Part shown: positions 17,244-37,590 of the stretch, piece by piece
How positions within the stretch are numbered: position 1 is the stretch's first letter
How the letters are laid out: every line of letters begins with the position of its first letter
Source: Desulfuromonadaceae bacterium
GTDB taxonomy: Bacteria; Desulfobacterota; Desulfuromonadia; Geobacterales; Pseudopelobacteraceae
Length of the DNA: 41,284 nt
Direction of reading: 5' to 3'
Assembly (NCBI GenBank): GCA_028683435.1
Contig: JAQUIG010000023.1
Span: 1-41,284 of the forward strand
Notes under the pieces: generated by a model
Seen by the model: only the letters and a program-made list of their open reading frames with translations
What the model was told of the DNA's origin: nothing
Databases searched by the model: none
Program-made: the position numbers and the translations under genes

Positions 17244-17519
17244 ATGAAAATGTCTAGCTTTAAAGCATTAGCAATTGGGGTTCTTTTCTTCAGCTTCTAC
17301 AGCTCAACAGCATCAGCTTGCGAGGACGGTCATTGGATTCAATCGGTATCTTCTGACGGTGCAATCATCAAATTGGAGGACGGCTCTATCTGGGAGGTTG
17401 ATTCAGGCGACGCAATAACATCGATGCTGTGGCTTCCAACCACTGGAATCGTTGCGTGTGATGACAAACTTATCAATACCGACGACGACGAGAAGGTAGA
17501 TGCTAATCGACTCAAATGA
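17244..17519 (+). CDS. Small exported protein with LEDGSIWEV motif
   Basis: A 91-residue protein with a clear Sec signal peptide (residues 1-25, cut after STASA; the mature protein starts with CEDGHW). The mature part is a short beta-rich domain: WIQSVSSDGAIIKLEDGSIW, then a pair of cysteines (residues 26 and about 74) and an acidic DDDEK stretch, ending NRLK. The L-x-x-G-x-I-W-E pattern and the RLK end recur in the last 70 residues of the PDZ protein at 19178-19984, so they probably share one fold. AGGAGG precedes the start. Likely periplasmic; function unknown. Confidence 0.7.
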   Translation: MKMSSFKALAIGVLFFSFYSSTASACEDGHWIQSVSSDGAIIKLEDGSIWEVDSGDAITSMLWLPTTGIVACDDKLINTDDDEKVDANRLK

Positions 17520-17656
17520 CGAGGCAGCTAACCCGGCGTCAACACTGAAGCTCCTACATCATACCGGTTATTTCTACGCCATACCAGACAGAAACAATCC
17601 GAAAAGACTGAAAACCTGAGCACCCTTGGGGGTGCTGGAGTAAGTTTCGATTTTAA

Positions 17657-17812
17657 AGATATTTATTGTTGTATAGGTCAAAGGGGGGAAATGATCACCC
17701 GCCGCCCTGCTGTCTCTATCCTGACCGTAATACAAGTCAATAGAATTACAGCAAATAAAGTTCTTAACACCCACCGGGCGTTGATTCATATCTGGTGAAA
17801 ATATATTGCGAT
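17657..17812. repeat. Diverged non-coding repeat, copy 1
   Basis: This stretch aligns over about 155 bases with 18932-19087. The start (ATATTTATT), the C/G-rich middle and the right part with CACCGGGC, TTG, ATATC and GTGAA blocks occur in the same order and spacing. It lies downstream of the small exported-protein gene, separated from it by a hairpin with stem AGCACCC (17619-17636). A minus-strand frame covers it but is not preserved in the second copy, so it is treated as non-coding. Confidence 0.5.
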
Positions 17813-17877
17813 AGTAAGTACTTGACAAGCATGAACGATTTATGAAACATCCCAGTTTCTCAATTCAATTGACACCT

Positions 17878-17893
17878 GGACGTCAATAAAAAC
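17878..17893. repeat. tRNA-end-like core, internal copy
   Basis: GGACGTCAATAAAAAC differs by one base from the attL junction sequence at 16451-16466 (tRNA 3' end plus the first bases of the element). A third, longer version lies at 37530-37545. It may be a relic attachment site from an earlier insertion, or chance. Confidence 0.35.
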
Positions 17894-17977
17894 GACAGTT
17901 ACGGTTTGTGCTGTGAGCCACTTATTGTTTGAGTGATCTTTTGTCCAAGGGGGCTCACTCGATATTCGATCCTTCGA

Positions 17978-18298
17978 TCACAGACGTACTGCTTTTATCA
18001 GCTTGAAAACCAGCCTCATTTCTTCATTACTTGCCCCCGCAAGTGCGATTTCAATACCTTTCAGACTTGTAGATTCATTGTTATGGTGTGCAAAATCAAA
18101 CAATTCTTTCATCTCTACCTGAAGGGAATCAGCAATACGCTCCAAAAGATCAAGTGAGGGTTGTCTTTTACCGACTTCAATCCGCGAAAGGTACTTTGAT
18201 TCAATCCCTACTTTCTCAGCAAGCAGATCTTGTGATAAACCGACTCGCTTCCGCAGTTCTTTGATTCTTGCCCCCAGAAGCATTTTTCTTGTGCTCAT
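17978..18298 (-). CDS. XRE-family transcriptional regulator
   Basis: A 106-residue DNA-binding protein. Residues 10-65 form a classic XRE helix-turn-helix: ARIKELRKRVGLSQDLLAEK, VGIESKYLSRIEVGKRQPSL, DLLERIADSLQVEMKELFDF. The C-terminal 40 residues (EIALAGASNEEMRLVFKLIKAV) form a helical segment probably used for dimer formation. GGGGGAT lies before the ATG. Its promoter region is shared with the divergent Lcl-domain gene, so it probably controls itself and that gene; this is inferred from arrangement only. Confidence 0.88.
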   Translation of the reverse strand: MSTRKMLLGARIKELRKRVGLSQDLLAEKVGIESKYLSRIEVGKRQPSLDLLERIADSLQVEMKELFDFAHHNNESTSLKGIEIALAGASNEEMRLVFKLIKAVRL

Positions 18299-18362
18299 AT
18301 TTGATCCCCCATGCTGCGAATCATGGCAGGTATGGCGGACTTATAAACTTACTGGCAGACCT

Positions 18363-18396
18363 ATTATATTGACAAAACCATACTAAATGTTAGATT
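18363..18396. promoter_or_regulatory. Abutting divergent promoter elements
   Basis: On the plus strand TTGACA (18369-18374), a 16-base spacer and TAGATT (18391-18396) point to the Lcl-domain gene. On the minus strand TATAAT (18363-18368) points to the XRE gene. The minus -10 touches the plus -35, so one polymerase would exclude the other and one operator could control both. Confidence 0.5.
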
Positions 18397-18504
18397 AGCC
18401 CAAACACATAGATAGTTTTTTAAGAAAATGTCGGCTTTTTGTTTCGAGGTGCCTCGTGGAACGACTATATTGAGATGCAGGAGTCTACAGAAGAAAGGTC
18501 GGAA

Positions 18505-18918
18505 ATGAACAATGATTCAACCTATGAATTCGTTTACACTGACCTGCAAACCTGCCTTATGTGGGCAAGTAACGGCAATATTATCGGCCAAGAGCTTGCA
18601 TGGGAAAGTGCCATGAACTGGGCAAAACATCTCAACTACGGCGGTCATGCCGACTGGCGTTTACCTACAAAAGAGGAACTTTGCGAATTTCGAGGGTGCG
18701 TGGTATGCCCGGATGATCAAGGCTGGATAAGCCCTTTCAAGTGGTTCAATGCCAATGGATTCAATAACGTTCAGCCTGGATTTTATTGGACTGGAACCGA
18801 GTGCGGTGATGACAGATATGCTTGGGGCGTGAGTGTTTTTGACTATGCCATGTATTCCAATGCTAAAGACGTTTATTACTATGTGTGGCCAGTTCGTGGG
18901 GTTGAAAATTTAGAGTAA
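18505..18918 (+). CDS. Lcl C-terminal (DUF1566) domain protein
   Basis: A 137-residue protein consisting of one Lcl/DUF1566 domain. It shows FVYTDLQTCLMWASNGNIIG, AMNWAKHLNYGGHADWRLPT with the diagnostic W-R-L-P-T-x-x-E-L, then FYWTGTECGDDRYAWGVSVF and YYYVWPVRG. Such domains usually sit on secreted surface adhesins, for example Lcl of Legionella. Here the chosen start has no signal peptide; in-frame starts at 18475 and 18439 also lack one. GGTCGG lies before 18505, a modest ribosome-binding site. Carried alone it may be an exchanged cargo module; its location in the cell is unclear. Confidence 0.75.
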   Translation: MNNDSTYEFVYTDLQTCLMWASNGNIIGQELAWESAMNWAKHLNYGGHADWRLPTKEELCEFRGCVVCPDDQGWISPFKWFNANGFNNVQPGFYWTGTECGDDRYAWGVSVFDYAMYSNAKDVYYYVWPVRGVENLE

Positions 18919-18931
18919 GGCTATCTTTCAT

Positions 18932-19087
18932 AATATTTATTATGACAGATGGCAAAGAGGTGAAAATGAAGCCCCCCGCCCCGTTTTCTATAGCCGTACG
19001 GCACACAAGTGCACTGAATATCCAAAATATAGAACTTTAAACGCACACCGGGCCTTGCTGTATATCCAGTGAAGATCTCTGGATATT
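18932..19087. repeat. Diverged non-coding repeat, copy 2
   Basis: Second copy of the repeat at 17657-17812. It starts about 13 bases after the stop of the Lcl-domain gene. It contains the perfect 10-base palindrome GCCGTACGGC and then the shared CACCGGGC-TTG-ATATC-GTGAA blocks. Both copies follow plus-strand cargo genes, which suggests a 3' untranslated element or a cassette boundary. Confidence 0.5.
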
Positions 19088-19177
19088 AAAATTGGAACTT
19101 GTAAAGAGTCTTTTACTTATTGAAGAACTTGACGAGGTCGTGAGGCATTAAATTCATCTACAAACTATATATTTCAG

Positions 19178-19984
19178 GTGCTTCCTTTGTTATTACGATT
19201 GATTATAGCATTTTTCATCATCAGCATTGCCAACCCAGTGCGTGCTCTCGATTTCTATGGGGCAAATATTGCTGATAGAGACGCCCCTTCCAGTTTCATG
19301 AAATATGGAATATATGGTTTCCGTGCAACTATAACCAGAGTATCTATTGATTCACCAGCGGATAGAGCTGGATTTAATCAAGGTGACATTATTCTTTCAA
19401 TTAATAAAAAGGATGTGAAAAGAACTTCCGAATTAAGCAGGTTCACTACAGACATGATAAAATTACATGTTTTCAGTGGTAGTGAACGTAAGACGTTAAC
19501 CATAAACAGGTTGGCTATTGAAACAGAAAAAGCTGCCAGAATTTCAGCTGAAAGAAAAGAGGCAACTGCCTCAAACACCGATAGTTACGTTGATGAACAG
19601 CCGAATAATTCACCTGCTTTGAAATTTAATGATGCCTATCTTGAAAAGAAGTTCGGTAAATCTACATATGTGCAGCCAAAAACAGAGAACTATAGGATAG
19701 TCAACCAACAACGAATTTACCAGGCACCTCAGACATCACATCCATCACCTGGATATGTAAGTTCAGGTGATGTGATTGAGAGTCGAATAGACGGAGCATT
19801 TGAAGGTTGGAGTGGCGAAACAATTTTCAAATTGGCCAATGGCCAAATATGGGAACAATCATCTTATGCATATACTTACCACTATGCTTATCGCCCCGAA
19901 GTTATTATCTACAGTTCCGGCGGCGGTTACAAGCTCAGGGTTGATGGCGTTGACAGCACAATCAATGTAATCCGGTTAAAGTAA
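19178..19984 (+). CDS. Exported PDZ-domain protein
   Basis: A 268-residue protein. Residues 1-24 are a signal peptide (RLIIAFFIISIANPVRALDF). Residues about 28-110 hold a PDZ domain: GFRATITRVSIDSPADRAGF, NQGDIILSINKKDVKR, with a degraded C-terminal strand. A hydrophilic linker, about 115-195, follows. The final 70 residues, after the segment with GETIFKLANGQIWEQSSYAY, form a beta domain ending INVIRLK. That domain resembles the small exported protein at 17244-17519. No protease domain is attached, so it may be a peptide-binding periplasmic adaptor. The GTG start has a poor ribosome-binding site; the exact start is uncertain. Confidence 0.7.
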   Translation: MLPLLLRLIIAFFIISIANPVRALDFYGANIADRDAPSSFMKYGIYGFRATITRVSIDSPADRAGFNQGDIILSINKKDVKRTSELSRFTTDMIKLHVFSGSERKTLTINRLAIETEKAARISAERKEATASNTDSYVDEQPNNSPALKFNDAYLEKKFGKSTYVQPKTENYRIVNQQRIYQAPQTSHPSPGYVSSGDVIESRIDGAFEGWSGETIFKLANGQIWEQSSYAYTYHYAYRPEVIIYSSGGGYKLRVDGVDSTINVIRLK

Positions 19985-20110
19985 TCTCGCGGGAAAACAT
20001 GAGTTTTGGGTGCTGTTATTGTCGGTTATGGACTCATCTTCGCTGTGAAGGATTGATGAAGTATAGAATCATATTTATTAGTAAAAACTTTACAAGCTGG
20101 AAGGATTCTC

Positions 20111-20590
20111 ATGAAAAAGATAACGTTCTTTGCATTATTTGTTGCTTTATTATTGGCCACAAGCAAACCAGAGGCGCTTGCCGCCGGGTACTGGATGGTT
20201 CAAGGTTCGACTGCGACGGAAACCCAAACCTTTCAAAATGGCAAGGGGCCAGTATCATTCGTCATAAGCTACAATAGAAACAATAGTTGCAGACCGGAAG
20301 TGTCGTTAATTATATGGTCTGACAATTCAAGGGTACTGGGAAATTTAATAAAGAGAAAAAGTACAAAAGACAATATGGTGATAACAATTGATGGAAAGAG
20401 CTTTTACAGCACTTTGACTGGTACTAAGTATTCAAACGCTTTAGATGTTGGATTCGTTATGAACGAGCAGAGTGTTGGACAATTTAAAAATGGTAAAAAT
20501 GCAGTAGTAAAAGCATATAGCTACCAGTTTGAGTTCCCGCTTGATGGTGCCAGATCGGCCATTGACGAGGCGCGTCGGAACTGCATGTGA
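20111..20590 (+). CDS. Small exported protein of unknown function
   Basis: A 159-residue protein with a Sec signal peptide (MKKITFFALFVALLLATSKP, probable cut after ALA, mature start AGYW). The mature part is beta-rich (GYWMVQGSTATETQTF, GPVSFVISYNRNNSCRPEVS, DALDVG-type strands) with two cysteines (NNSC and the penultimate residue) that could pair in the periplasm. I do not recognise the family. AAGGA precedes the ATG. It follows the PDZ gene on the same strand after 126 bases and precedes another unknown gene, so the three may form a cargo operon. Confidence 0.65.
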   Translation: MKKITFFALFVALLLATSKPEALAAGYWMVQGSTATETQTFQNGKGPVSFVISYNRNNSCRPEVSLIIWSDNSRVLGNLIKRKSTKDNMVITIDGKSFYSTLTGTKYSNALDVGFVMNEQSVGQFKNGKNAVVKAYSYQFEFPLDGARSAIDEARRNCM

Positions 20591-20632
20591 TTGTTGAGCA
20601 GTTTGAATACAATTCATTAACAGGAGAGTGTT

Positions 20633-21205
20633 ATGGGTATTTTCGGGAATTTATTTGGGAATAGCAACAATAATAGTCGTCCACCCAGTATGAAGGAAAA
20701 AATAAAACTAAGCATTGAAGAATTATTCGATTGTGCAAAAGCAGATAATGATAACTTAATTGCGTTAATTGAATCTGCTCACAATAGCAAAGCAACAGTT
20801 AGACAAAAAAGTGAGTCACTTTCAGAGTTTATAAGTTTACATATTGGCCATTTTTACATGTTTTTATTATCACCAAACAACAAAGATATTATTGGAACTC
20901 TGACTATAGATGAATTATACAACCGCTATACGCGAGAGTTACTTGATATAATTTACACAAATAAAGGGAATGCTATTGCAAAAGATAATATTGTTCATTA
21001 TGCAACAAATCATTACAAACATGAAAAGGTGACTATGTATTTAGGCTGTGGGGATTATTTTAAAGGCAGAATATACACAATATTCAATGTTGATAAAAAC
21101 GATTTCTTTCTCACTTCTGCCATACACCAAACAACCTACAACTCAATAACCTCTGCTCTAGCATATAATAAGATAATATTTGACACAAAAAATGCTCATA
21201 TATAA
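20633..21205 (+). CDS. Unrecognised AT-rich cargo protein
   Basis: A 190-residue soluble protein with no signal peptide. It begins MGIFGNLFGNSNNNSRPP, a glycine/asparagine-rich N-terminus like small proteins that start with a membrane- or partner-contacting helix, followed by mostly helical segments (IKLSIEELFDCAKADNDNLI, ELYNRYTRELLDIIYTNKGN). Codon use and base composition are much more AT-rich than the core genes, which fits recent transfer. GGAGAG precedes the ATG. I do not recognise the family. A strong hairpin closes the plus-strand cargo block just after it. Confidence 0.6.
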   Translation: MGIFGNLFGNSNNNSRPPSMKEKIKLSIEELFDCAKADNDNLIALIESAHNSKATVRQKSESLSEFISLHIGHFYMFLLSPNNKDIIGTLTIDELYNRYTRELLDIIYTNKGNAIAKDNIVHYATNHYKHEKVTMYLGCGDYFKGRIYTIFNVDKNDFFLTSAIHQTTYNSITSALAYNKIIFDTKNAHI

Positions 21206-21235
21206 CCACGTCACTTATCCCATATATCTTCTTTA

Positions 21236-21267
21236 AATGAGGCTACCCGGTTAAGGATAGCCTCATT
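21236..21267. terminator. Hairpin between cargo and replication modules
   Basis: AATGAGGCTA pairs perfectly with TAGCCTCATT around a 12-base loop. It lies between the converging plus-strand cargo block and the minus-strand replication block and could end both transcripts. The U-tract is weak on either side. Confidence 0.65.
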
Positions 21268-21272
21268 CAAAT

Positions 21273-21524
21273 TTAGCTCAACAAAAGCACCTCAATGTTT
21301 TCCCGGAACTTTGCATAGCTGCGAACGTGCACCCAGTACATCTCACCAAATAGACGAACTTTCTTGAATTTATATTGAGGCATGAGAATGTCTAAAACCT
21401 CAACGTCTGTATTTATGCTCTTAGCAATCAAATTTGCTGAGAGGCCTTTCAGCTGATCTTCTTCAGGAACACCAAGCCAGTACGCTAACAAATTGTTTCC
21501 AATCGTTTCCATATTTATCTTCAT
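21273..21524 (-). CDS. Small unknown protein of the replication module
   Basis: An 83-residue protein starting MKINMETIGNNLLAYWLGVP. The segment LSANLIAKSINTDVEVLDIL looks like a helix-turn-helix, and the second half is a basic beta-rich stretch (QYKFKKVRLFGEMYWVHVRS). I do not recognise the family. Its ATG overlaps the stop of the preceding gene (ATGA), so it is translated with it. AGAGGTGC lies upstream. It is the last gene of the minus-strand module. Confidence 0.6.
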   Translation of the reverse strand: MKINMETIGNNLLAYWLGVPEEDQLKGLSANLIAKSINTDVEVLDILMPQYKFKKVRLFGEMYWVHVRSYAKFRENIEVLLLS

Positions 21525-21826
21525 AAAGCACCTCTTGTTTCTTTATTCTGAGTGGGCGGCACCCAGGTTCTGCCAAAAGGGAAATTTTTTCGCCATGATC
21601 TTCCCCGCTTCCATTCAAGCTGGGCAAGTGCAACGCCGATGACGCTGGGGGCATATCCCAGAGTATCGACTAACCACCTCATGGTGTAGTACGGTTCACG
21701 TTGAACGTCTGGTAACTCATCCCACCATTTTTTTATATCTTCAGACGGAGTGAGTAGTGGTTTGTAGTTAGCTTTCATTATTTCCCGGTTCTTTCTGATC
21801 TGATCCATCGTTATTATCGTGTTCAT
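21521..21826 (-). CDS. Small unknown protein with HTH-like segment
   Basis: A 101-residue protein. The middle segment MRWLVDTLGYAPSVIGVALA followed by QLEWKRGRSWRKN resembles a recognition helix-turn-helix with a basic tail, so DNA binding is plausible. The start at 21826 is chosen because GGAGG stands upstream of it; a longer frame to 21874 has no such site. It lies between a long inverted repeat and the 83-residue gene it overlaps. The family is not recognised; a role in replication or copy control is inferred from position only. Confidence 0.55.
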   Translation of the reverse strand: MNTIITMDQIRKNREIMKANYKPLLTPSEDIKKWWDELPDVQREPYYTMRWLVDTLGYAPSVIGVALAQLEWKRGRSWRKNFPFGRTWVPPTQNKETRGAL

Positions 21827-21892
21827 TGTCCGTCCTCCGGGTTTGGTGGTGGTTTTCAAAAATGATACCTGCAATTAACTGAAGCACGGGTG

Positions 21893-22005
21893 GGTGGCGG
21901 GGGTGGCGGCGTTTCCTACTTTTTTCTATTATCTTCTTTGTTTGATCAATACAAACACAAGAGTAATAAGAAAAGAAAATAGAATTATGCGCCACCCCCG
22001 CCACC
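21893..22005. repeat. G-rich inverted repeat beside the primase gene (candidate origin)
   Basis: Two 16-bp perfect arms (21893-21908 and 21990-22005, GGTGGCGGGGGTGGCG and its complement) enclose 81 A/T-rich bases whose edges also pair partly (purine-rich against pyrimidine-rich runs). The left arm with flanking GGGTGGGTGG could form a G-quadruplex. It lies between the primase-helicase gene and the next small gene. It could be the element's origin of replication, a terminator or both. Confidence 0.5.
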
Positions 22006-22010
22006 TGTGG

Positions 22011-24152
22011 TTATTTCACCCTGTGTCTGATGCCGATAATCATACGAATACCTTTGGAGCCTTTTTTACGTTCAAATCCGAGACGTACCAGACGAGTTGT
22101 GAAGTTCTGAACATTGACTTTGCGGTTTATGCCGCACATAGATGTCCAGCACTGATATTTAATATACAGCTCACTAACAGTAGATTCAGCATCTGGGCTT
22201 GATTCACATTCATCATCAACAAACGAGGCGACCTGATCGACCTCCCGCTCCCATTCCTGCTTCGCATCTTCACTGCTCGGTAGTTTGGTAAAGTCGCCTG
22301 TGTCATAGAGCCGTTTAAGACCAGCAAGGGCGAAGTTAAGAATCCCCGGCAACTCTTTCAGAAGATCATCCTTTAGATGCACATCACGCTCGGCACCGTC
22401 GAACTTTCTGTTGAATGTGATTACTTCTGCCCGTCTGAAAAACGCTGACGAAAAGTCTTGTGTGTGTGGCATGTGATTAGTTGCAAAAAACATGGTGCAA
22501 AATGGCCGGAAGTCAAACGGTGGCCGATGTTTCTGTTCTGCTGTCATTAACTCACCTGATACAATCGCCTTCAGCTTGGCATCCGGGATAACTGCACCTT
22601 GCGGAATTTCAGTTATGATGTTTGCAAGCTTCCCTTGCAAATGGGCCAATTGGAAGCGGTTTTCAAATTGACTTGGCTGCACTCCGGCCACATTAAGCAG
22701 ACCTATAAGTGCTTCTATGGTTTTAAGGAGTACACTTTTCCCATTGGCCCCTTGCCCTATCAGTAGAAGAAAACGCTCGTACTCACAAGTCGTGCTCAAG
22801 GCATAACCCATGAACTCCTGCACAATCTGGATTTTCTGTAGCCAATCGGCGTCCCGTGCAAATATTTCTTTCAGGAATTTTAGAAAACGGGCTGGCTTTG
22901 CGGACTTGTCGTAAACAACTGGAATCTGCTGTGTAAAGTAACTGTTGCGGTCATGCTGTTTTAGAATCCATACGCTGCCCATATAATGGATCTCGCCATT
23001 CATACAGTTGATTGCCTTCTTGTTGATGTCAAAAAGGTGATCAGACGCATGTGCCTCAGTTTTTATTAGGTCAAGAACAGAATCAACATGTGATCGGCTG
23101 AGTTTACCTTGGTCGGCAATCTTGTGGATTATCTGTTTAAATTCTCTATCATCAACTTGACGCCAGACTCCCCTCTGTTCGTCCCATCGCCAAAACTGAT
23201 GAGTAAAAAGTATATTCTGTTGTCCAACTCGGCGAATGACAGCCAAAGCTATTGCATACTGTGACGTCCCTGGAGTATTTGCTTCAGAGGTGCCCTTGTT
23301 GTCTCCTTCAAAAGCCTTGGCAATAGTCATTTGACCGTAGGTATGCTCACCGCGATATTCATCCCATTTATCACGCATAAGCTTTGATTTCCGGAATATG
23401 CGGTCAATTGCTTCGGCTGAGACTGTAAACTTGGTCAGTAAAGAGCATAGCGCAAGGTCTGCTTCTGATTGGCTGGGATATGCAGAAAAGTCACCGGCCA
23501 TGAGTGCCTCAAAATTACATGTACCTGCTGCGAATGATACATTGATGAGAATTTCTTCGTCAGTCAGGTTGGCCGTCTGGGTGGGTTCATTTTGTTTGGG
23601 CTTGTCTTTCTTTTGCTCGGACAGGCTTGCGTACAGATTATCAATTTCAGCCGGCCGCATCTCAATAGTCACTGGAGTTCCGTCCAAATGATTTCCGGTA
23701 AAAGTGAAGTAACGTCCCTGATCATATATTTCAGTGTCGCCGACTTTTTTGCCTTTACCGGGTAGTTGGCCTTTTACAATAATATGAACACCTGTGCCTG
23801 ATGGGCTTAGTTCCGTATAACTCGCAAATCGGCTGATAATCCCCTGTGCCCAAGACTGAATCACTCCAGTTTCTTTGTTACGGCAGTTGTCCAGATCTAT
23901 CCCTACAAAGTTATCATTCTTTGAGAAGACGAAACCGATACCATCGAAACCACCCTGGTTGAGGCGGTTAATAGCTTGTTCGCATGTCCCCCAGGTTGCA
24001 GGATTGGATGCTGATGCACATTTACCTGTCTTGGGATTCATTGGAACTTTTTTGGGTTTTTGGGGGTCGCTAGAGTTCGGCATAAATTTCCAACATACCC
24101 AATTGGGGTGTGTCTTGAGTCTTTGCGGGATGTTGTTGAATGCGGTTGTCAT
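22011..24152 (-). CDS. D5/P4-type primase-helicase (replication protein)
   Basis: A 713-residue replication protein. The N-terminal 200 residues form a primase-polymerase-like domain as in NrS-1 phage polymerase: HPNWVCWKFMPNSSDPQKPK, GIGFVFSKNDNFVGIDLDNC with an acidic pair, ELSPSGTGVHIIVKGQLPG. The middle is a D5-N-type domain. Residues about 440-640 are a superfamily 3 helicase: FLLLIGQGANGKSVLLKTIE (Walker A), LANIITEIPQGAVIPDAKLK (Walker B region), MFFATNHMPHT (sensor) and FRRAEVITFNRKF. The C-terminus is a winged-helix-like origin-binding tail. It very probably starts replication of the excised element. It overlaps alpA by 4 bases (ATGA). Confidence 0.9.
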   Translation of the reverse strand: MTTAFNNIPQRLKTHPNWVCWKFMPNSSDPQKPKKVPMNPKTGKCASASNPATWGTCEQAINRLNQGGFDGIGFVFSKNDNFVGIDLDNCRNKETGVIQSWAQGIISRFASYTELSPSGTGVHIIVKGQLPGKGKKVGDTEIYDQGRYFTFTGNHLDGTPVTIEMRPAEIDNLYASLSEQKKDKPKQNEPTQTANLTDEEILINVSFAAGTCNFEALMAGDFSAYPSQSEADLALCSLLTKFTVSAEAIDRIFRKSKLMRDKWDEYRGEHTYGQMTIAKAFEGDNKGTSEANTPGTSQYAIALAVIRRVGQQNILFTHQFWRWDEQRGVWRQVDDREFKQIIHKIADQGKLSRSHVDSVLDLIKTEAHASDHLFDINKKAINCMNGEIHYMGSVWILKQHDRNSYFTQQIPVVYDKSAKPARFLKFLKEIFARDADWLQKIQIVQEFMGYALSTTCEYERFLLLIGQGANGKSVLLKTIEALIGLLNVAGVQPSQFENRFQLAHLQGKLANIITEIPQGAVIPDAKLKAIVSGELMTAEQKHRPPFDFRPFCTMFFATNHMPHTQDFSSAFFRRAEVITFNRKFDGAERDVHLKDDLLKELPGILNFALAGLKRLYDTGDFTKLPSSEDAKQEWEREVDQVASFVDDECESSPDAESTVSELYIKYQCWTSMCGINRKVNVQNFTTRLVRLGFERKKGSKGIRMIIGIRHRVK

Positions 24153-24454
24153 AGGTTCGCTCCCGTCGATGCGTTCTTTGGCTTACGTCCACGCTTAGAG
24201 CCTGGGGCAACGGGAATAACATTATCGGCGGTGATAGTTTCACGGGAGTCCATCCAGGCCATAAGTGAAGAGAGGCGTACTCCCACTGAATTTGCACCTA
24301 TTCGGATTTTGGGAGGGTATGTTCCGGCCTGCTGGTCACGCCAGATAGAAGCGAGCGAACGACCTGTAATGAGTACTTGTTCGGCTGGTCTTACGATGCG
24401 GTCTTGTCCAGCTGCGAGTGCTACTGCGTTCTTTTTGATTATTTCATTTGGCAT
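24149..24454 (-). CDS. AlpA-like regulator / excisionase
   Basis: A 101-residue protein with the AlpA-type MerR-like winged helix: QVLITGRSLASIWRDQQAGT, YPPKIRIGANSVGVRLSSLM, AWMDSRE. In P4-like elements AlpA activates the integrase or acts as excisionase, so this is the likely switch between the integrated and excised states. A basic tail (SKRGRKPKNAS) is added. The ATG follows GGAGG, and that site lies in one arm of an inverted repeat (24460-24522) that could hide it in the mRNA. It is coupled to the primase gene. Confidence 0.85.
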   Translation of the reverse strand: MPNEIIKKNAVALAAGQDRIVRPAEQVLITGRSLASIWRDQQAGTYPPKIRIGANSVGVRLSSLMAWMDSRETITADNVIPVAPGSKRGRKPKNASTGANL

Positions 24455-24459
24455 AAAAA

Positions 24460-24522
24460 AACCTCCATACTTTTAGTGAATCAGTGTGCGCACACCGTTT
24501 CATCTCTTTTCGCATGGAGGTT
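24460..24522 (-). promoter_or_regulatory. Nested palindromes in the alpA leader
   Basis: Outer arms AACCTCCAT (24460-24468) and ATGGAGGTT (24514-24522) enclose the perfect 12-bp palindrome GTGTGCGCACAC (24484-24495). On the minus-strand transcript the outer arm covers the GGAGG ribosome-binding site of alpA, so the hairpin could block translation. The inner palindrome is a good operator candidate. Confidence 0.5.
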
Positions 24523-24570
24523 CTTGCAACTTGGTAGAGTTGCATTGTAAGTTACCAGCAACTTACAAAA

Positions 24571-25311
24571 TTATTTTGTAGCGTTATGCGCTGCTTTTGC
24601 CTTGGCAAGCCTTTCCCCAATTTCTTTATCGGAATACCAGAAATCCAGCTTTGATAGACCTTCTTTGCCCTCTTTTGCATCGTACATAAACAAACCCTTT
24701 TCAACGCCAGTGCCAATTTTTTTAACCGAAAAGGAGAAATTACTTTCCTTTTTACCCGTCTCTTTTTTTGTAAGTTGCGTTTTTACATATTCATAAAAAC
24801 TTACCTTGCTGTGAGATGCGAATTGTGTATCAAGAAACTCCTTAATGACCTGTGTAATTGGTGCTGTGCCTTTTGCCACTCTGGGGGTAGACATGTCATC
24901 ACAATTACAGCGATTGCCTGCATCACTGAAATCGCAGTTTGGCAATGCTACACGCAAATCTGTTATCTCAACTCGGACCTGACGTGGCGGGACTGACCAT
25001 AACCACCCGTTCAAATCTATATCAAGGTCAATTAAATCCCCATTTTTATCAAGTATTCTTTCCAGCTGCATTTCAGTTATCCTAAATACAGGCTTCCTAA
25101 GATATTCCCTGCCATCCGGATATTTATCTGTATCAATCAAAATTGTTTGAGCAAACCTTTCAAAATCGCCATTCAAAATTTGCTCTTTAAGAACATCTAC
25201 AGTGCATTTCAGGCATTTAGCTGCCGAAGGTAAGGTATAAAAACTATGATCCTTTTTATAACAGTCAGGAAGCGAAGGCTTTAGAAGTTCATTAAGTGCG
25301 GAATTTTCCAT
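24571..25311 (-). CDS. Unknown protein between integrase and alpA
   Basis: A 246-residue soluble protein. The N-terminal part has an excisionase-like feel (FYTLPSAAKCLKCTVDVLKE, QILNGDFERFAQTILIDTDK: a helix-turn-helix followed by a strand). Several cysteines (CLKC near residue 35; NCDFSDAGNRCNC near residue 145) could bind a metal. The C-terminus is lysine-rich. I do not recognise the family. The ATG at 25311 is chosen because the longer frame to 25449 runs inside the integrase gene; AAAGG lies upstream. Two short hairpins (24528-24562) follow the stop. Confidence 0.55.
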   Translation of the reverse strand: MENSALNELLKPSLPDCYKKDHSFYTLPSAAKCLKCTVDVLKEQILNGDFERFAQTILIDTDKYPDGREYLRKPVFRITEMQLERILDKNGDLIDLDIDLNGWLWSVPPRQVRVEITDLRVALPNCDFSDAGNRCNCDDMSTPRVAKGTAPITQVIKEFLDTQFASHSKVSFYEYVKTQLTKKETGKKESNFSFSVKKIGTGVEKGLFMYDAKEGKEGLSKLDFWYSDKEIGERLAKAKAAHNATK

Positions 25312-25351
25312 TTTAGCGCCTTTCAGATTCGGATTTTGTATCACACGGACT

Positions 25352-26761
25352 TTATGCCGCCTTGCGCTTACCCTCGTTGATACTGGTAACATTATCCTTT
25401 TTTGTTTTCTCGGTGACAATGGACAAAAGCTTGCGCTCCCAGGATTCAAGAGCTTGCTGTTTCTCCTTGGCGTAATCGTGCCGGTTGTAGGTGCGAATTA
25501 TGCCTTGCTTGACATGGTTTAACACTGCGTCGATGATCTCGTCCATATAACCCATACTGGCCATAAAGGTTGCAGCCGTCCGGCGCAAGTCGTGCGGAGT
25601 GAACTGGTCAATCAACAGCCGGTTTTCTGTGGCCGGTTTGCCGTCCTTCTTATAAAGCGGTTTGCCTTTGGTGTCAGTCAGCGGCCACGCGAGGTTCCGT
25701 CGGACGGAAACAGGCAAAGCGTGTGAGTCAATGGCCTGTACCTTGTCCTTGTGAGGACAGGGGAAGATAAAGCCGCTGTATGGGTCAGTTATAGGGACTT
25801 CTGGTTTCTTCTCTTTCTTCATCCTCAGGTTGTGGTTTATAAGGCCCTTCTTATTATCCTCTATTGCTGCGTTAATGATCTCAATTGCCGTGTCGGTCAA
25901 ATATACTCGATGCTCTTTGCCGTTCTTTGATCTTTCAGCTGGTATAGTCCACCAATGGCCGTCAATCTCTTTGACATGCATCCCTGACACCTCCCCTGGT
26001 CTCTGTGCTGTCAAAAGCACCAGCTTAAGCGCTCGTTTGATCTCGTCGCTTATGGCTGCATTGTTCATGCTCCCCCATAAGGTTTTCATCTCGGTTTCAT
26101 TCAAGGTACGTTCCCGGCGTATGTTAGGCGAGAGAGCCTTTACGCCTGTGCAAGGCGTGTGCTGTAGGATGTCACGCTCAACGGCAAAGTTAAACATCTT
26201 GCGAACGACTTTCAAAACTTGGTTGCTCATGGCGGGGGTGCCGCGATCAACGATGCTTTCAAGTAACAGGGTCATATCCCGCTTGGTTATATCTGAGGCT
26301 TTGCGTTTACCCCATACAGATACAATTTCTTTATTCAAAAGCCGTTCATCTTCTTGCCATGATCTCTTGAACTTCATGGCGTGTCTCTCTACGTACTCCT
26401 TCACAAGACCCGCCACGGTAAGCGCCTGCGATTGCTCTGCGGCTTCTGCAATGCGTCTCTCTTGCTTTCGCTTTTTTTCAAGAACAGGATCGGAACCGTC
26501 GGCACTGCCACGCCGCAAGGCTTTAACCTTTATAGCTTCTGCCTGGTAAAGTTCCCGCGCCTTCTTTAATGTGGTAGTCGGATAAGTCCCCAAAGCCATA
26601 AACCGGCGTTGTCCATCTATCTTATACAAGTAGAAGAATGTCATGGTGCCGGAAGGATGGACACGGATACCAAAGCCGGGTTCTTTCTCTGCCATACAAT
26701 CAAAGGTTTTGGCTGCTGTCTGTAGATTCCTGATAGTTGGATCGTCAAACTTGGCTTTCAT
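25352..26761 (-). CDS. int: P4-type tyrosine integrase
   Basis: A 469-residue site-specific recombinase. Residues 1-90 are the DUF4102 arm-binding-type N-terminus (GFGIRVHPSGTMTFFYLYKI, DGQRRFMALGTYPTTTLKKA). The core-binding domain spans about 115-220. The catalytic domain has the first arginine in TAQRPGEVSGMHVKEI, HDLRRTAATFMASMG (H-x-x-R box), the later histidine in LNHVKQGIIRTYNRHDY, and the nucleophile tyrosine in the same segment. GGGGAGG precedes the ATG. It lies next to attR and reads inward, as usual. It should recombine the 46-bp att repeats in tRNA-Arg. Confidence 0.94.
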   Translation of the reverse strand: MKAKFDDPTIRNLQTAAKTFDCMAEKEPGFGIRVHPSGTMTFFYLYKIDGQRRFMALGTYPTTTLKKARELYQAEAIKVKALRRGSADGSDPVLEKKRKQERRIAEAAEQSQALTVAGLVKEYVERHAMKFKRSWQEDERLLNKEIVSVWGKRKASDITKRDMTLLLESIVDRGTPAMSNQVLKVVRKMFNFAVERDILQHTPCTGVKALSPNIRRERTLNETEMKTLWGSMNNAAISDEIKRALKLVLLTAQRPGEVSGMHVKEIDGHWWTIPAERSKNGKEHRVYLTDTAIEIINAAIEDNKKGLINHNLRMKKEKKPEVPITDPYSGFIFPCPHKDKVQAIDSHALPVSVRRNLAWPLTDTKGKPLYKKDGKPATENRLLIDQFTPHDLRRTAATFMASMGYMDEIIDAVLNHVKQGIIRTYNRHDYAKEKQQALESWERKLLSIVTEKTKKDNVTSINEGKRKAA

Positions 26762-26785
26762 GGTAATGTCCTCCCCTTGAATCAG

Positions 26786-26806
26786 AGTGGTACTTTAGTG
26801 GTACTT
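26786..26806. repeat. Right arm-type integrase binding repeat (candidate)
   Basis: The same 21 bases as at 16516-16536 (two tandem AGTGGTACTTT units), located 25 bases upstream of the integrase start codon. Integrase bound here could also repress its own gene. Confidence 0.7.
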
Positions 26807-26950
26807 ATTCAGTTGCCTTGTGGTGTAAAACAGTGAAATACTATGAGAGGATTATTACAGGTAATAACGTGATAAGTCAATGATAAATAGAAGGTATTTT
26901 ATATTTTATGAGGGATGGTAAAATGCTATGAAATGATTACATTCATTAAC

Positions 26951-26996
26951 TCCTAAGGAAGGGGCCGGTCGTTCGAATCGACTCGGGGACGCCAAA
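26951..26996 (+). repeat. Attachment site attR (46-bp direct repeat)
   Basis: Exact copy of tRNA-Arg bases from the anticodon loop through CCA plus one A. The 5' half of the tRNA is absent here, so this is the displaced original 3' end of the gene. Confidence 0.93.
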
Positions 26997-27003
26997 CACT
27001 ATT

Positions 27004-27043
27004 GGAATTGAGTACCTCACCTGGGGTACTCAATTCCTTTTTT
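27004..27043 (+). terminator. Displaced native tRNA-Arg terminator
   Basis: A 13-bp perfect stem (GGAATTGAGTACC with its complement at 27025-27037) is followed by TTTTTT. It lies just past attR, where the terminator of the uninterrupted tRNA-Arg gene would be. Confidence 0.85.
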
Positions 27044-27640
27044 GGGGCCGCAAATTTTATCGCACCCGCCAGAGATGCATACAGGCGGCTGACTTTTATG
27101 ATGCTGGATCAGGATATTGTTGCTGTCAGCCCGTCGAGCACGTGGCGCGTTCTTTCAAAAGCTGGAATGCTGCAGAAGTGGAATCAGAAACCGTCTTTAA
27201 AAGGAACTGGATTCGTTCAGCCACTATTGCCTCACGAACACTGGCATGTGGATGTTTCTTACCTCAACATCCGTGGCACCTTCTACTACCTGTGCAGCTT
27301 CCTTGATGGATGCAGCCGCTCCATCATCCATTGGGAGATCAGAGAGCAGATGACCGAACGAGACATAGAAATCATTCTTGAACGATCCAAGAAAAAGTAC
27401 CCTGCTGCGCGCCCACGTATCATTTCCGACAACGGCCCGCAGTTCATTGCCAAAGATTTCAAGGAATTCATCCGAATCTCCGGCATGACCCATGTACGAA
27501 CATCGCCCTTCTATCCGCAGTCAAACGGCAAGCTGGAGCGATTCCACAAAACCATCAAGACTGAATGCATACGTCCCGGAACCCCGCTTTCACTTGACGA
27601 TGCTCGCCGGATAGTAGAAAAGTACAGCATCCGGACGTAG
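27044..27640 (+). pseudogene. IS3-type transposase fragment (both ends missing)
   Basis: The frame encodes an rve-type integrase core: YRRLTFMMLDQDIVAVSPSS, then HWHVDVSYLN (first D), PRIISDNGPQFIAKDFKEF (second D) and SPFYPQSNGKLERFHKTIKT (catalytic E). The N-terminal orfA part is missing: the sequence begins in mid-protein right after the tRNA terminator. The C-terminus ends abruptly as VEKYSIRT, where relatives continue with a further ~50 residues. No terminal inverted repeats are seen. It cannot encode an active transposase. Its left edge lies within a few bases of the displaced terminator. Confidence 0.85.
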
Positions 27641-30817: not shown

Positions 30818-31592
30818 TGTCAATAGTGGACACTCACGTCTTACACAGCCGCCGCCCGGATATTGAAATTTTGTTCAAATACGGCTAGCGATAAATAGCC
30901 AAGACGCGAATGGCGCCGTTGACGGTTGTAGAATATCTCGATGTACTCGCGAATGGAGGCCTCAGCCTCAGCCCGGGTCACATAGCGGCAGTGATGTACC
31001 AGTTCATTTTTGAGGCTTCCCCAGAAGCTCTCCATCGGCGCGTTATCATAGCAGTTTCCCCTGCGCGACATCGAGGCCCTCATTCCAAACTGTTCAATAA
31101 GCTTACGGTAGCCGTGAGCACAGTACTGGCTGCCTCGATCCGAGTGATGAATCAACCCGACCGCCGGTCGTTTCTGTTGTACCGCCCGAAATAAAGCCCG
31201 GCCAGTCAGCTCCTGTGTCATGCACTCGGCCATTGCGTATCCAACAATTTTACAGGTAAACACGCCTTTAACCCCGGCAAGGTACAGCCAACCCTCCCCG
31301 GTAGGGATATAGGAATATCAGTGACCCAGACCTGGTTAGGTGCGTTGGGCGTAAAGGTTTGGTTCAACAAGTTTTCAGCCACTGGCAAGTTGTGGTTTGA
31401 ATTCGTTGTTGCCTTGAACTTGCGCTTCTGCCGACAACGCAGCCCCAGTTCCCGGCGTAAGCGGACAATGCGGTCGCGCCCGGCGATAAAACCATCATTA
31501 GTCAGCTCTGGTTGCAACCGCCGAGCACCGTAGGCGTTTAGTGGTTGGCCTTCAGCACGCATAATTTCTAAAACCTTTTCTGCTATATCCAT
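30818..31592 (-). pseudogene. IS3-family orfB relic: frameshifted, N-terminus replaced
   Basis: The minus strand encodes an IS3-type transposase in two frames: first YGARRLQPELTNDGFIAGRD up to NQVWVTDI, then from about 31312-31316, after an apparent one-base loss, YIPTGEGWLYLAGVKGVFT and HHSDRGSQYCAHGYRKLIEQ, with NAPMESFWGSLKNE carrying the catalytic glutamate. The expected N-terminus is missing. Instead the frame starts at 31592 with MDIAEKVLEIMRAEGQPLNA, which is not transposase-like. Beyond the stop lies TGTCAATAGTGGACAC (30818-30833), a plausible terminal repeat. The element is dead. Confidence 0.85.
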
Positions 31593-31654
31593 TGCAATAC
31601 CCCTTATTATTTTTAGCGACAGCATAAATTTGTTTTTTCGTTGTAGTCCACGAG

Positions 31655-32026
31655 CTACCAAGTCTGAGTGGCAGAGTCGATAGTAACGGCCATTGTAGCA
31701 CGTAGCCATGCAAATTTTGCCTTGAGAACATCAAAGTCCGGACCAGAGGTTACAAATTGTGCCTTCCCCTTGACCAGAAAACCTGCACCAGGTCCATTTA
31801 GACCTTTGACCTTGCTGCTCCCCAAGGTTATTAATACTTCCGGGTTGAAAGCAATGTTCGCCTCCGTACGATGCATGTAACCGGCAGGGATCAAAAGACG
31901 ACCATCTTCGGTGGTTCTCAGATAACTGTTCCAGGTATTGACCATATGCGGCCCATCCTCCCCCAAGGTCGCAATTGCAACCACTCCATCCTCTTTCATA
32001 ATTTCCAGCAATTTTTCCGAAATCAT
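31655..32026 (-). CDS. Pyridoxamine 5'-phosphate oxidase-like FMN-binding protein
   Basis: A 123-residue split-barrel flavoprotein. It shows SEKLLEIMKEDGVVAIATLG, then GPHMVNTWNSYLRTTEDGRL, LIPAGYMHRTEANIAFNPEV, KGAGFLVKG-type strands (GPGAGFLVKGKAQFVTSGPD) and the final VTIDSATQTW. The length is normal for the small FMN-binding pyridoxamine-oxidase-like family of anaerobes; substrates are mostly unknown. AGGAGG precedes the ATG at 32026. A broken frame upstream (to 32276) runs into this gene in another phase and is probably a decayed neighbour. Confidence 0.85.
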   Translation of the reverse strand: MISEKLLEIMKEDGVVAIATLGEDGPHMVNTWNSYLRTTEDGRLLIPAGYMHRTEANIAFNPEVLITLGSSKVKGLNGPGAGFLVKGKAQFVTSGPDFDVLKAKFAWLRATMAVTIDSATQTW

Positions 32027-33707: not shown

Positions 33708-34007
33708 TCATATCACCATAGCCGCACAGGGCGCATAACATCGGTCCCAGTATGCCTTCCTTTGCTTCAACCATACGTCCGGAAGTTCTTTCTTAACCGT
33801 TTCAGTAATGCGCCACCCTTGGGAGTAGGCGGATCGGGTCAAGAGCTTGCTGACCATCTCCTGGCCGAGAGTTTCGATCATCTCCTTGCGCAGCAGAGAT
33901 TGAACGGCGGCATCCATTAAGTAGACCCTCTGTCCGAGGAATAGGATCACCCCTCCCAGCGGGTTGAATGAGAGCAGTTCCCGAAAATCAAGTTGCGTGG
34001 TCTTCAT
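33708..34007 (-). CDS. Orphan XylR N-terminal (V4R-type) domain protein
   Basis: A 99-residue protein that corresponds to the first part of the XylR_N effector domain of sigma-54-dependent activators: LDFRELLSFNPLGGVILFLG, QRVYLMDAAVQSLLRKEMIE, TLGQEMVSKLLTRSAYSQGW. The V4R portion, AAA+ domain and DNA-binding domain are all missing. It ends after YWDRCYAPCAAMVI. It is either a truncated regulator or a free-standing fragment; in view of the IS debris around it, truncation is more likely. Confidence 0.7.
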   Translation of the reverse strand: MKTTQLDFRELLSFNPLGGVILFLGQRVYLMDAAVQSLLRKEMIETLGQEMVSKLLTRSAYSQGWRITETVKKELPDVWLKQRKAYWDRCYAPCAAMVI

Positions 34008-35147: not shown

Positions 35148-36044
35148 ATGAAAGATCTCAATTTATCCAGCTTCAAACAGTCATGGCGACTCATCTTCGT
35201 ATGTCTTCTCAGTGCTTATATCCTCACAGGATGCGGCTCAAGCGGAACTGATACAACCGCAGGAGTTGGCTCTGGAGGCACAGGAGTTCTGGCGAAAGCA
35301 GTAACCGGCACAGTTGCTGATGGTTATCTTGTTAATGCGACGGTGTTCCTCGACAAGAACGGCAATTACCAATTAGATGTAGGCGAACCATCCACAACCA
35401 CTGATTCAAATGGGACATATGCGCTGAATATTGACCCGGCGGATGTCGGCAAATATCCAATAGTTGTGCTGGCAATCAAAGGAATTACTCTCGATAAAGA
35501 CACTAACCAAACCATAGCCAACAGCTATGTTCTCAGTTTATCGAGAGACAGTGTTACCGGCACGGTCAGCAATTTCATCAGCCCAATGTCATCACAAATT
35601 CGGGAATTGATGGAAACGGGGGCATATGCTTCCTTGCAACAGGCTTCGGACGCCTTGAGCAGCCAATTAGAGTTGCCAATTGGTACGGACATGAGGGGGG
35701 ATTACCTTCAATCCAACAACACCTCTATTCACACCGCAGCACAGAATATGTCGACCCTCATGGGAAATCAGATGGAGCAGGTTATGGGTGTGAACGGTTC
35801 GACCATAACGGTTGATGTCAACCGTTATAGAGGCATGATGGGTTTAATGTTCAACAACATGTCGTCAAGTTGGTGCCAGTCTTCACAATCCAGCATGGGG
35901 ACTTTTAGTAGCACCATGACAACTATGTTAGCCAACACGCCAACCACACCTGTCGGGCAGCCCTACTGGGATATGTCAACAGCCTATTCAAATATGATGG
36001 GGGGAATGAGCACAAGTAATAGCTCAATGATGGGCACATATTAA
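35148..36044 (+). CDS. Lipoprotein, paralogue A of a tandem pair
   Basis: A 298-residue exported lipoprotein. The signal peptide ends in the lipobox AYILTGCGSSG (cysteine near residue 29). Residues about 50-130 form a beta-sandwich like carboxypeptidase-regulatory or SdrD B-like repeats (VTGTVADGYLVNATVFLDKN, TTTDSNGTYALNIDPADVGK). The C-terminal half is helical and very rich in Met, Ser and Asn (RYRGMMGLMFNNMSSS, and a tail of repeated M-M-G motifs). AAAGGA lies before the ATG. It shares its layout and many blocks with the next gene, a clear tandem duplication. Likely on the outer membrane or facing the periplasm; role unknown. Confidence 0.82.
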   Translation: MKDLNLSSFKQSWRLIFVCLLSAYILTGCGSSGTDTTAGVGSGGTGVLAKAVTGTVADGYLVNATVFLDKNGNYQLDVGEPSTTTDSNGTYALNIDPADVGKYPIVVLAIKGITLDKDTNQTIANSYVLSLSRDSVTGTVSNFISPMSSQIRELMETGAYASLQQASDALSSQLELPIGTDMRGDYLQSNNTSIHTAAQNMSTLMGNQMEQVMGVNGSTITVDVNRYRGMMGLMFNNMSSSWCQSSQSSMGTFSSTMTTMLANTPTTPVGQPYWDMSTAYSNMMGGMSTSNSSMMGTY

Positions 36045-36094: not shown

Positions 36095-36979
36095 ATGAAA
36101 AAGCGAGCATTAGCGGTATTATGTATTATTTATTCCGGGATTATAGCTGGTTGCGGTAGCAGTGGCAGCAGTACAAATCCAGCCGCAACAACGTCAGTCT
36201 CCGGCAAGGTTGCTGATGGCTACCTGGTCAATACCACAGTATTCCTCGACAAGAATTTCAACTACCGATTGGACGCAGAGGAACCCTCTGCTGTTACGGA
36301 CTCAAACGGAGCTTATTCGCTCACTATTGACCCTACCGATGTAGGCAAATACCCGATTGTGGCAATTGCAACTAAAGGTGTGACTATCGATAAGGATACC
36401 AATTTACCAGTCACCAATACGTATGTTCTCAGTATGCATGCAGTTGCCGTCACTCCGACGACGGGTGGCGTTTCCGGCACGGCCAGCAACTTCATCAGCC
36501 CGATGTCATCGCAAATTCGTGAAATGATGGAAACCGGTAAATACGCCACAATGCAGGATGCGATGAACGAATTAAGAAGTAAACTTGGCTTACCTACAGG
36601 AATAAGCATGATGGGAGACTATATAGCTGCAAACAACACAGCTATGCATACTGCTGCCCAGAACATGGCTACCCTGATGGGAAGCCAAATGAATCAGGTA
36701 TTTCGTTCCTACAGTTCCACTACGGGTGTTGATGTAAATCGTTACCGTGGCATGATGGGTACGATATTCAACAATATTTCCTCCGTCAGAGGGACAGGAA
36801 CCAATTCCCAGACTGCAATGACAAACTTGACGGGCACGATGATGACAAACCTTTCTACTATTACATCGGGCCAGCCATACCGTAACATGTCGTCTGCCTT
36901 CCGTGGCGGCACGGTGGGATGGACTGGAAGTGGAACAACAGGTTTGACCGGTGGAACAGGTAGTGGAATGATGAGGTAA
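36095..36979 (+). CDS. Lipoprotein, paralogue B of a tandem pair
   Basis: A 294-residue lipoprotein with lipobox GIIAGCGSSG (cysteine near residue 20). It repeats the layout of its neighbour: VSGKVADGYLVNTTVFLDKN, VTDSNGAYSLTIDPTDVGKY, NFISPMSSQIREMMETGKYA, AQNMATLMGSQMNQVF, VDVNRYRGMMGTIFNN. It differs by an insert (AVAVTPTTGG) and by a Gly/Thr-rich tail ending GSGMMR. AAAGGAGA precedes the ATG. The two copies have diverged a great deal in the tails, so the duplication is not recent. Methionine-rich tails suggest metal binding as one idea only. Confidence 0.82.
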   Translation: MKKRALAVLCIIYSGIIAGCGSSGSSTNPAATTSVSGKVADGYLVNTTVFLDKNFNYRLDAEEPSAVTDSNGAYSLTIDPTDVGKYPIVAIATKGVTIDKDTNLPVTNTYVLSMHAVAVTPTTGGVSGTASNFISPMSSQIREMMETGKYATMQDAMNELRSKLGLPTGISMMGDYIAANNTAMHTAAQNMATLMGSQMNQVFRSYSSTTGVDVNRYRGMMGTIFNNISSVRGTGTNSQTAMTNLTGTMMTNLSTITSGQPYRNMSSAFRGGTVGWTGSGTTGLTGGTGSGMMR

Positions 36980-37124
36980 ACACGGCGTCGAAGATTGCCC
37001 CACCTGAATCTTCAACACATCGATATTCCAAGAATGTTCAAGCTGTAGTGGGTCAAGTTGGGCGCCGATGCCGGGTCAGAATATGATACCGGTTCACAAG
37101 CATCTCTTGCAAAGCGTTACACCG

Positions 37125-37152
37125 TTGACTTTCGTTTACACTCAGGTATACT
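37125..37152 (+). promoter_or_regulatory. Promoter of the GEMM riboswitch
   Basis: TTGACT (37125-37130), a 16-base spacer and TATACT (37147-37152) form a good sigma-70 promoter, with the start expected near 37159, just before the aptamer. Confidence 0.7.
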
Positions 37153-37166
37153 TTTCTAAAATGGTT

Positions 37167-37249
37167 GGTACACGATAATACTAAACCACCCGCGAGGATG
37201 GGGCGGAAAGCCCATAGGGTCTCACAGAGACAGCCGGGTTGCCGAAATA
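37167..37249 (+). ncRNA. GEMM-I (probably GEMM-Ib, cGAMP-type) riboswitch aptamer
   Basis: The sequence follows the GEMM fold. The 5' strand is CACGATAATACTAAACC, then a P2 hairpin closed by CCGCGAGG with a GCGA tetraloop, and the tetraloop-receptor strand GGGGCGGAAAGCCCATAGGG. A P3 arm (GTCTCACAGAGAC) follows, and then the closing strand AGCCGGGTTGCCG. Aligned on CACG and AAACC, the position equal to G20 of c-di-GMP aptamers is A, the change known to favour 3',3'-cGAMP in Geobacter switches; this alignment is by eye. The closing strand overlaps a terminator, so ligand binding should turn expression on. Confidence 0.85.
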
Positions 37250-37279
37250 TCACTATATTTCGGCAACCCGGCTTTTTTT
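37232..37279 (+). terminator. Switching terminator of the GEMM riboswitch
   Basis: A 19-bp perfect stem (37232-37250 with 37255-37273, loop CACT) is followed by seven T's. Its 5' strand contains the aptamer's closing sequence AGCCGGGTTGCCG, so aptamer and terminator exclude each other. This gives an ON switch with ligand. Confidence 0.9.
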
Positions 37280-37307
37280 ATAAAAATTCCCGGGAAAAGG
37301 AGGCACC

Positions 37308-37453
37308 ATGTTTTCGAAGACACTAACACAGCGATCTCGTACAAGACATTTATATCTACGAACGGATTCCGTCTCTACTCGTCTTCATCGGTAAGTGTGG
37401 AACAAGGGAAGACAACAGACCTCGGAACTATCCCACTGGTAAAAACCCCCTGA
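37308..37453 (+). pseudogene. Remnant of the riboswitch-controlled exported-protein gene
   Basis: GGAGG and ATG (37308) follow the switch at the right distance, but that frame stops after 28 codons. In another frame 37310-37453 encodes FEDTNTAISYKTFISTNGFR then LYSSSSVSVEQGKTTDLGTI and PLVKTP. This matches the C-terminal end of carboxypeptidase-regulatory-like or cytochrome-type secreted proteins (a beta strand then V-x-V-x-x-G-x-T-T-x-L-G-T-I-x-L). So the ribosome-binding region is joined out of frame to the last ~47 codons, and most of the gene is deleted. Confidence 0.7.
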
Positions 37454-37459
37454 TATGGT

Positions 37460-37499
37460 CTTTCCCACCTGAAACTGGATCCAGTTTCAGGTGGGAAAG
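37460..37499. repeat. 40-bp perfect palindrome
   Basis: Bases 37460-37479 are exactly the complement of 37480-37499 with no spacer, centred on GGATCC. It lies 6 bases after the pseudogene stop. No T-run follows, so it is not a normal terminator, although the RNA would form a very strong hairpin. Confidence 0.9.
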
Positions 37500-37528
37500 T
37501 TCACGAAAGACCCGGCGTGATCCACCAT

Positions 37529-37590
37529 GGGACGCAAATAAAAACAGGCACATGCAACGATAAATTGCAGGTGCTTTTTCTTTTTTATGA
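37529..37590. repeat. Copy of the tRNA-Arg end/terminator sequence
   Basis: GGACGCAAATAAAAAC (37530-37545) and the following hairpin (AGGCACATGCAA ... TTGCAGGTGC, then TTTTTCTTTTTT) closely match 16449-16505, the tRNA-Arg 3' end plus element terminator. The tRNA body is absent. It acts at least as an intrinsic terminator and may be a relic att site. Confidence 0.6.

Follow-up and report, generated by a model that had tools for sequence, protein, structure and literature searches.

A cGAMP-type GEMM-I riboswitch that appears to have recently lost its DUF4382 lipoprotein gene

The switch and the unit behind it

The window is a stretch of 41,284 nucleotides from a Desulfuromonadaceae bacterium and represents an entire contig (C29) of a draft assembly with 97 contigs that is 99.9% complete. 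It was compared with a set of 39 genomes from the genus, its own included. A short regulated unit is found on the forward strand between positions 37125 and 37586. It begins with a sigma-70-like promoter (37125-37152), which is followed by a GEMM-I aptamer (37170-37246) and an intrinsic terminator (37232-37279) which shares the 3′ strand of the aptamer. Next come the Shine-Dalgarno-like AGGAGG and the ATG of a former gene (37298-37310) and, across a deletion junction (37324-37334), the remnant of that gene (37334-37453). A hairpin from a perfect 40-base palindrome (37460-37499) is located 3′ of the former stop codon and the unit is closed by a terminator (37529-37586).

As had been expected of the GEMM model, the aptamer scores 42.6 bits with the covariance model RF01051, above the gathering score of 35 (E 3.6e-5 over the window). 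The assembly contains 11 matches to this model, this one included. It also matches the GGC variant model RF03167 (c-di-GMP-I-GGC) with 44.1 bits, but this is under the cut-off of 59 and thus the aptamer is not a member of that family. We aligned 18 switches with an A at the ligand-discriminating position, namely that of the window, ten from DUF4382 loci and seven others from the assembly. Across these, 97.2% of the pair cells of the aptamer are kept. In helix 2, five pairs are changed on both sides, and none in helices 1 and 3. When pairing was compared with 500 shuffles, five measures were reached by 0, 3, 0, 34 and 0 of them. Folding of the bare 88-nt aptamer stretch is hardly distinctive (z -1.3; 20 of 200 shuffles fold as well) and in the 5′ half its minimum-energy fold is not that of the consensus aptamer.

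The terminator consists of 19 pairs (37232-37273) followed by six T's, and the region 37230-37280 folds with -34.3 kcal/mol (z -11.3). Its conservation is looser than that of the aptamer, with 83.5% of pair cells kept over the 18 switches, and its covariation is weak, as 82 of 500 shuffles reach its number of pairs changed on both sides. Because the 5′ arm of the hairpin holds the bases that close the last helix of the aptamer, the two folds are mutually exclusive.

The promoter was assigned solely by its match to the consensus (TTGACT, 16 nt, TATACT; 10 of 12 bases), and a second site overlaps it. A scan of both strands gave three sites and shuffled sequence gave a mean of 1.4 (sd 1.3), so that the promoter is plausible but not proven. 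At the aligned place, the related genome G016 has TTGACA-16-TATAAT, with the consensus base at both positions where the window deviates. The original prediction had described promoter, aptamer and mutually exclusive terminator as intact; this was borne out for aptamer and terminator, while the promoter is plausible only. On paper, the regulatory anatomy of the switch appears intact.

The palindromic hairpin (-33.4 kcal/mol) and the terminator at the unit end are also intact. A matching hairpin with compensating changes is present behind six of the 17 gene ends examined in relatives. The palindrome was considered as a repeat element, which was rejected because it occurs at only one place in the assembly. 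A match of region 37462-37586 to the Rfam 'trpB' motif (31 bits against a cut-off of 59, E 0.028) was taken as chance.

A net deletion of 790 bp

The ATG at 37308 opens a frame of only 28 codons (37308-37394), whereas the old 3′ end of the gene shares its frame with 37310 and reaches its stop, TGA, at 37451-37453. The remnant is therefore out of frame with the start, as had been predicted. The nature of the former gene became evident from G016. Region 11058-16477 of the window is collinear with 50460-55976 of its contig C17. Judged by eye from their translations, the genes along this stretch are a quinone oxidoreductase gene, surE, pcm, rpoS and apt, and a tRNA-Arg gene (CCT; 16382-16458, forward strand, in the window) comes after them. 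In G016, a GEMM switch and an intact DUF4382 gene come directly after this tRNA. Because the intact pair sits beside the same apt and tRNA-Arg genes, the switch in the window is the ortholog of that in G016 and the deletion is clear.

The two genomes align over the leader, the start and the first codons and once more over the last 39 codons; in between, the window lacks 790 bp. The distance from start to stop is 936 bp in G016 and 146 bp in the window, and about five sixths of the gene length have been lost. About 18 nt of the gene start and the last 39 codons with their stop (37334-37453) have been kept. The junction is single and clean with matching flanks, and on either side the identity to one relative is 91%. 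An initial estimate of the last 47 or so codons needs correction: only the 3′ end remains, as was claimed, but the homologous part is restricted to 39 codons and the stop, while the other eight codons are junction sequence.

The full-length protein of G016 has 311 residues, is termed a lipoprotein from its N-terminus as read by eye, and contains a DUF4382 domain (PF14321, 107.6 bits) at residues 38-196. This domain lies wholly inside the deletion and is thus missing from the window's gene, and the 47-residue frame ending at 37453 matched no Pfam family. PF14321 has no match anywhere in the assembly, and no other copy of the gene was found in it. A search by sequence at E≤0.01 detected no solved structure for a DUF4382 protein.

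Switch-gene pairs in related genomes

The 47-residue frame matches longer genes in 23 of the 39 genomes at E≤1 (its own included), the weakest rows being probably due to chance. With the G016 protein as query, there are 19 rows in 16 of the 39 genomes at E≤1e-5. Ten of these are complete genes belonging to the close group; they come from nine genomes (G016, G020, G040, two in G044, G017, G006, G001, G015 and G047). All ten have a GEMM switch directly upstream of the gene, which codes for a DUF4382 lipoprotein of about 310 residues. The search for a full-length gene behind the same switch was thus successful, and the proposal that the gene has been deleted is supported by the orthologous G016 locus together with nine other intact pairs in eight other relatives. 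These pairs share with the window a related switch, leader, start and 3′ end, but their gene is intact and that of the window is not.

Among the other nine rows, the fetched stretches around the DUF4382 genes of G012 (56% identical) and G052 (31%) contain no switch, and a gene on contig C336 of G040 (47%) has a partial switch match. Contig ends truncate the rows from G018 and G041. Besides the window, rows without the 5′ part come from G003, G040 and G045. In G003:C42 and G040:C145 only a C-terminal piece of the gene is left, and the copy in G045:C276 is shortened at the N-terminus. These three resemble the window in that the 3′ end of the same gene survived loss of the 5′ part, but they differ from it in that no switch was found in the 5-9 kb fetched around each. 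Copies restricted to the 3′ part, none with a switch detected nearby, are located at 4075-4185 of stretch L092, 2975-3061 of L158 and 1112-1732 of L093, and in two of these cases a small Gly/Arg-rich lipoprotein-like frame (identified by eye) precedes the copy. In several loci (L082, L085, L087 and L088, and for database protein P0002) no stop codon interrupts the frame that runs from the aptamer into the DUF4382 gene, and because of this mechanical gene calls, including P0002, start inside the riboswitch.

Among 5.8 billion proteins searched, 554 are relatives at E≤1e-20. None of the 120 listed among them is an intact copy with the C-terminus of the window, and the nearest C-terminus to the remnant among these is that of G016 itself (35 of 39 residues). 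Named relatives were found in 12 cases, all of them metagenome bins. No published case of DUF4382 combined with a riboswitch was found in the literature outside most subscription papers. Within the same coverage, the titles and abstract starts of the matches listed contained no precedent for an orphan riboswitch or for one with a pseudogene or truncated gene.

Ligand and mode of action

At the discriminating position of the alignment, eight of the 11 switches in the assembly (that of the window included) have an A and three (on C60, C19 and C31) have a G. In the window this is A37180, which by the alignment is taken as the equivalent of pocket nucleotide 20 of Vc2. An A in place of G at this position, as seen in the alignment, is the hallmark of GEMM-Ib, and thus the aptamer is predicted to be of this cGAMP-selective type.

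A study on Geobacter reports that a GEMM-Ib switch no longer prefers cGAMP but c-di-GMP once its A20 is replaced by G, and that expression of the genes downstream of such switches drops when GacA, the cGAMP enzyme, is deleted (PMC6456294). An affinity of about 16 nM is given for Gm0970 in PMC8835794. With the Geobacter switches of pgcA, pilM and Gmet_0970, that of the window shares the aptamer family, the A aligned to position 20, the mutually exclusive terminator and an exported protein as target, but it differs in that only a start and a 39-codon tail are left of the controlled gene.

A source of cGAMP in this bacterium is likely, judging from its GGDEF proteins. There are 28 GGDEF matches in the assembly, 24 of which were aligned. 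A receiver-GGDEF protein on C34 is a candidate Hypr GGDEF enzyme, with Ser at the signature position and the motif GGDEY, which is that given for Ser/Thr enzymes in PMC6456294. Two more proteins have a Ser (on C47 and C45) and are without the GGDEF motif. With seven other A-type switches and a Hypr-like GGDEF protein in the assembly, the signal may therefore still be made.

The pilM cGAMP switch is described in PMC9262584 as an ON switch in which aptamer and terminator exclude each other, and the window agrees with it in building the terminator from the 3′ strand of the aptamer. By analogy to such studied relatives, the strand from 37232 onwards would pair downstream as terminator when ligand is absent, this being the predicted OFF form, and transcription would stop near 37279. 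With cGAMP bound, this strand would be held in the aptamer and the polymerase would continue to the terminator of the unit near 37586. Read-through would yield an RNA of about 425 nt (assuming a start near 37160), which would carry the 28-codon frame and code for no working protein.

Mobile DNA at the tRNA-Arg gene

While switch and tRNA-Arg are adjacent in G016, they are separated by 20.6 kb in the window. This stretch is made up of an integrated island of 10.5 kb (16460-26995) and another 10 kb. The island is bounded on both sides by exact 46-bp repeats of the 3′ end of the tRNA (16414-16459 and 26950-26995). It codes for a tyrosine integrase with arm-binding domain (25352-26761, reverse strand) and an NrS-1/D5-type primase (22011-24152, reverse strand). 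The 10 kb between island and switch carry transposase pieces, a sensor kinase and paired lipoproteins. Three short frames in this region (27002-27640, 31218-31709 and 33708-34007), with transposase-type domains and a XylR_N domain, are probably gene pieces. The lipoprotein-like genes (35148-36044 and 36095-36979) are neighbouring paralogs with 71% identity over 239 nt; they lack a Pfam domain above the cut-off and have matches in 19 of the 39 genomes (own included).

The end of the unit also resembles the tRNA locus. Positions 37529-37582 are identical in 48 of 54 positions to 16450-16503, which span the end of the tRNA and its downstream terminator (score 78; the best of 500 shuffles reached 29). 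When compared in this way, G016 (score 17, with shuffles reaching 27) and G017 (score 15) do not exceed chance level. From the island with its tRNA-end repeats and from the likeness of the unit end to the tRNA end, we conclude that tRNA-Arg is an integration site. The deletion is found near this mobile traffic, and a causal link between the two is a possibility only.

In 21 of the 27 loci having the tRNA (own included), a terminator and a short doubled repeat follow tRNA-Arg, as judged by eye (L264-L293). The repeat varies between genomes and in the window reads AGTGGTACTTTAGTGGTACTT. Such doubled repeats suggest that the integration site is widely used. We also considered that the DUF4382 unit is a general tRNA-borne mobile cassette in the relatives, but this is not supported. 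Only in G016 is a tRNA gene found within 200 nt of the switch among the stretches scanned; in G040, a tRNA-Glu gene is about 2 kb away. A 12-letter motif from the tRNA end occurs behind the gene with up to two mismatches in five of 19 tails (window, G040, G044b, G045 and G041), and it is also readable as a small hairpin. In G017, the contig that carries the DUF4382 unit also carries tRNA-Arg, 11.3 kb away, and no integrase related to that of the window is found between them.

Age of the loss and frequency of orphan switches

Changes were polarized by comparison with the sister G016 and with five to seven outgroups. In the 115 columns of the aptamer-terminator block, no change is window-derived, one is G016-derived and one is ambiguous. 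The 120 columns of the remnant show three window-derived (two of them silent, one changing an amino acid), three G016-derived and two ambiguous changes. For the promoter stretch (37103-37165, 62 columns) the counts are two, one and ten, and for the leader (27 columns) one, zero and one. Among the window-derived changes is the G-to-A exchange that creates the AGGAGG. As the 39 codons of the remnant contain no stop and no unambiguous window-derived change affects the aptamer-terminator block, the loss looks recent, which agrees with the suggestion that the switch is freshly orphaned. The observed changes fit a young loss, and equally a switch with or without selection acting on it.

Ten of the 11 switches in the assembly have a frame behind them. 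Among relatives, we inspected the 60 top-ranked rows left after removing the window's own rows, the ten DUF4382 switches and the remnant-only rows. In 58 of these, a frame of at least 60 codons starts within 450 nt, according to a mechanical test in which several rows are tandem switches of one unit. Of the two exceptions, L223 is caused by a contig end, and the overlapping stretch L235 shows the gene start. The other, L257 (G052:C6:21918-22039), has a GEMM switch and terminator with no gene in the approximately 400 nt to the contig end, and may represent a second orphan switch.

An orphan switch or another explanation

We consider it very probable that the window contains a GEMM-I ON switch of the cGAMP type that has recently lost its DUF4382 lipoprotein target by a net 790-bp deletion, which left the start and the final 39 codons in different frames. 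The point most in doubt is whether the deletion has become fixed in this species or stems from the draft assembly. A wrong join could have occurred in an assembly of 97 contigs, the named relatives are themselves metagenome bins, and most cells of the species might keep the gene, the deletion being an artefact or a minority variant. We regard this as unlikely, given the single clean junction with matching flanks and equal identity to one relative on both sides, the lack of any further DUF4382 domain or gene copy in a nearly complete assembly, and the failure to find the C-terminus of the window in any intact protein among the relatives listed. That a complete protein is still made by programmed frameshift from 37308, a case raised by the original prediction, would account for the different frames of start and 3′ part. 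Its likelihood is practically nil, as 790 bp of coding sequence including the whole domain are gone, as is evident from the relatives, and a frameshift product could reach only some 45-50 residues.

A further explanation is that the switch has been retained for a useful product, either a cGAMP-induced small RNA or a peptide of 28 residues. The orphan switch would then be the promoter-proximal half of the RNA of about 425 nt, kept by selection despite the gene loss, and this RNA would have a strong 3′ hairpin, a terminator of its own and an improved ribosome site with a 28-codon frame. The unchanged aptamer-terminator block, the window-derived exchange that generates AGGAGG, and the intact hairpin and end terminator would fit. 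However, G016 has kept its gene and shows just one assigned change in the same columns, and therefore the comparison of zero with one change is uninformative on selection. With just three window-derived changes in the remnant, the loss may also be too young to judge. We consider retention for such a product highly improbable and selection on the RNA no less so; a new RNA product or function is possible but unsupported.

In summary, the loss of the target gene behind the predicted cGAMP switch is apparently a recent and ordinary gene loss at a place where mobile DNA lands. The riboswitch class itself is already known, and the window adds a freshly orphaned case. It is a clean natural example of a riboswitch that has outlived its gene, and an intact orthologous locus is there for comparison. 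From such a pair one can gauge the time for which an aptamer persists when its target is gone. The position of a cGAMP-type switch beside a tRNA-Arg integration site may help to explain the turnover of targets between close species.
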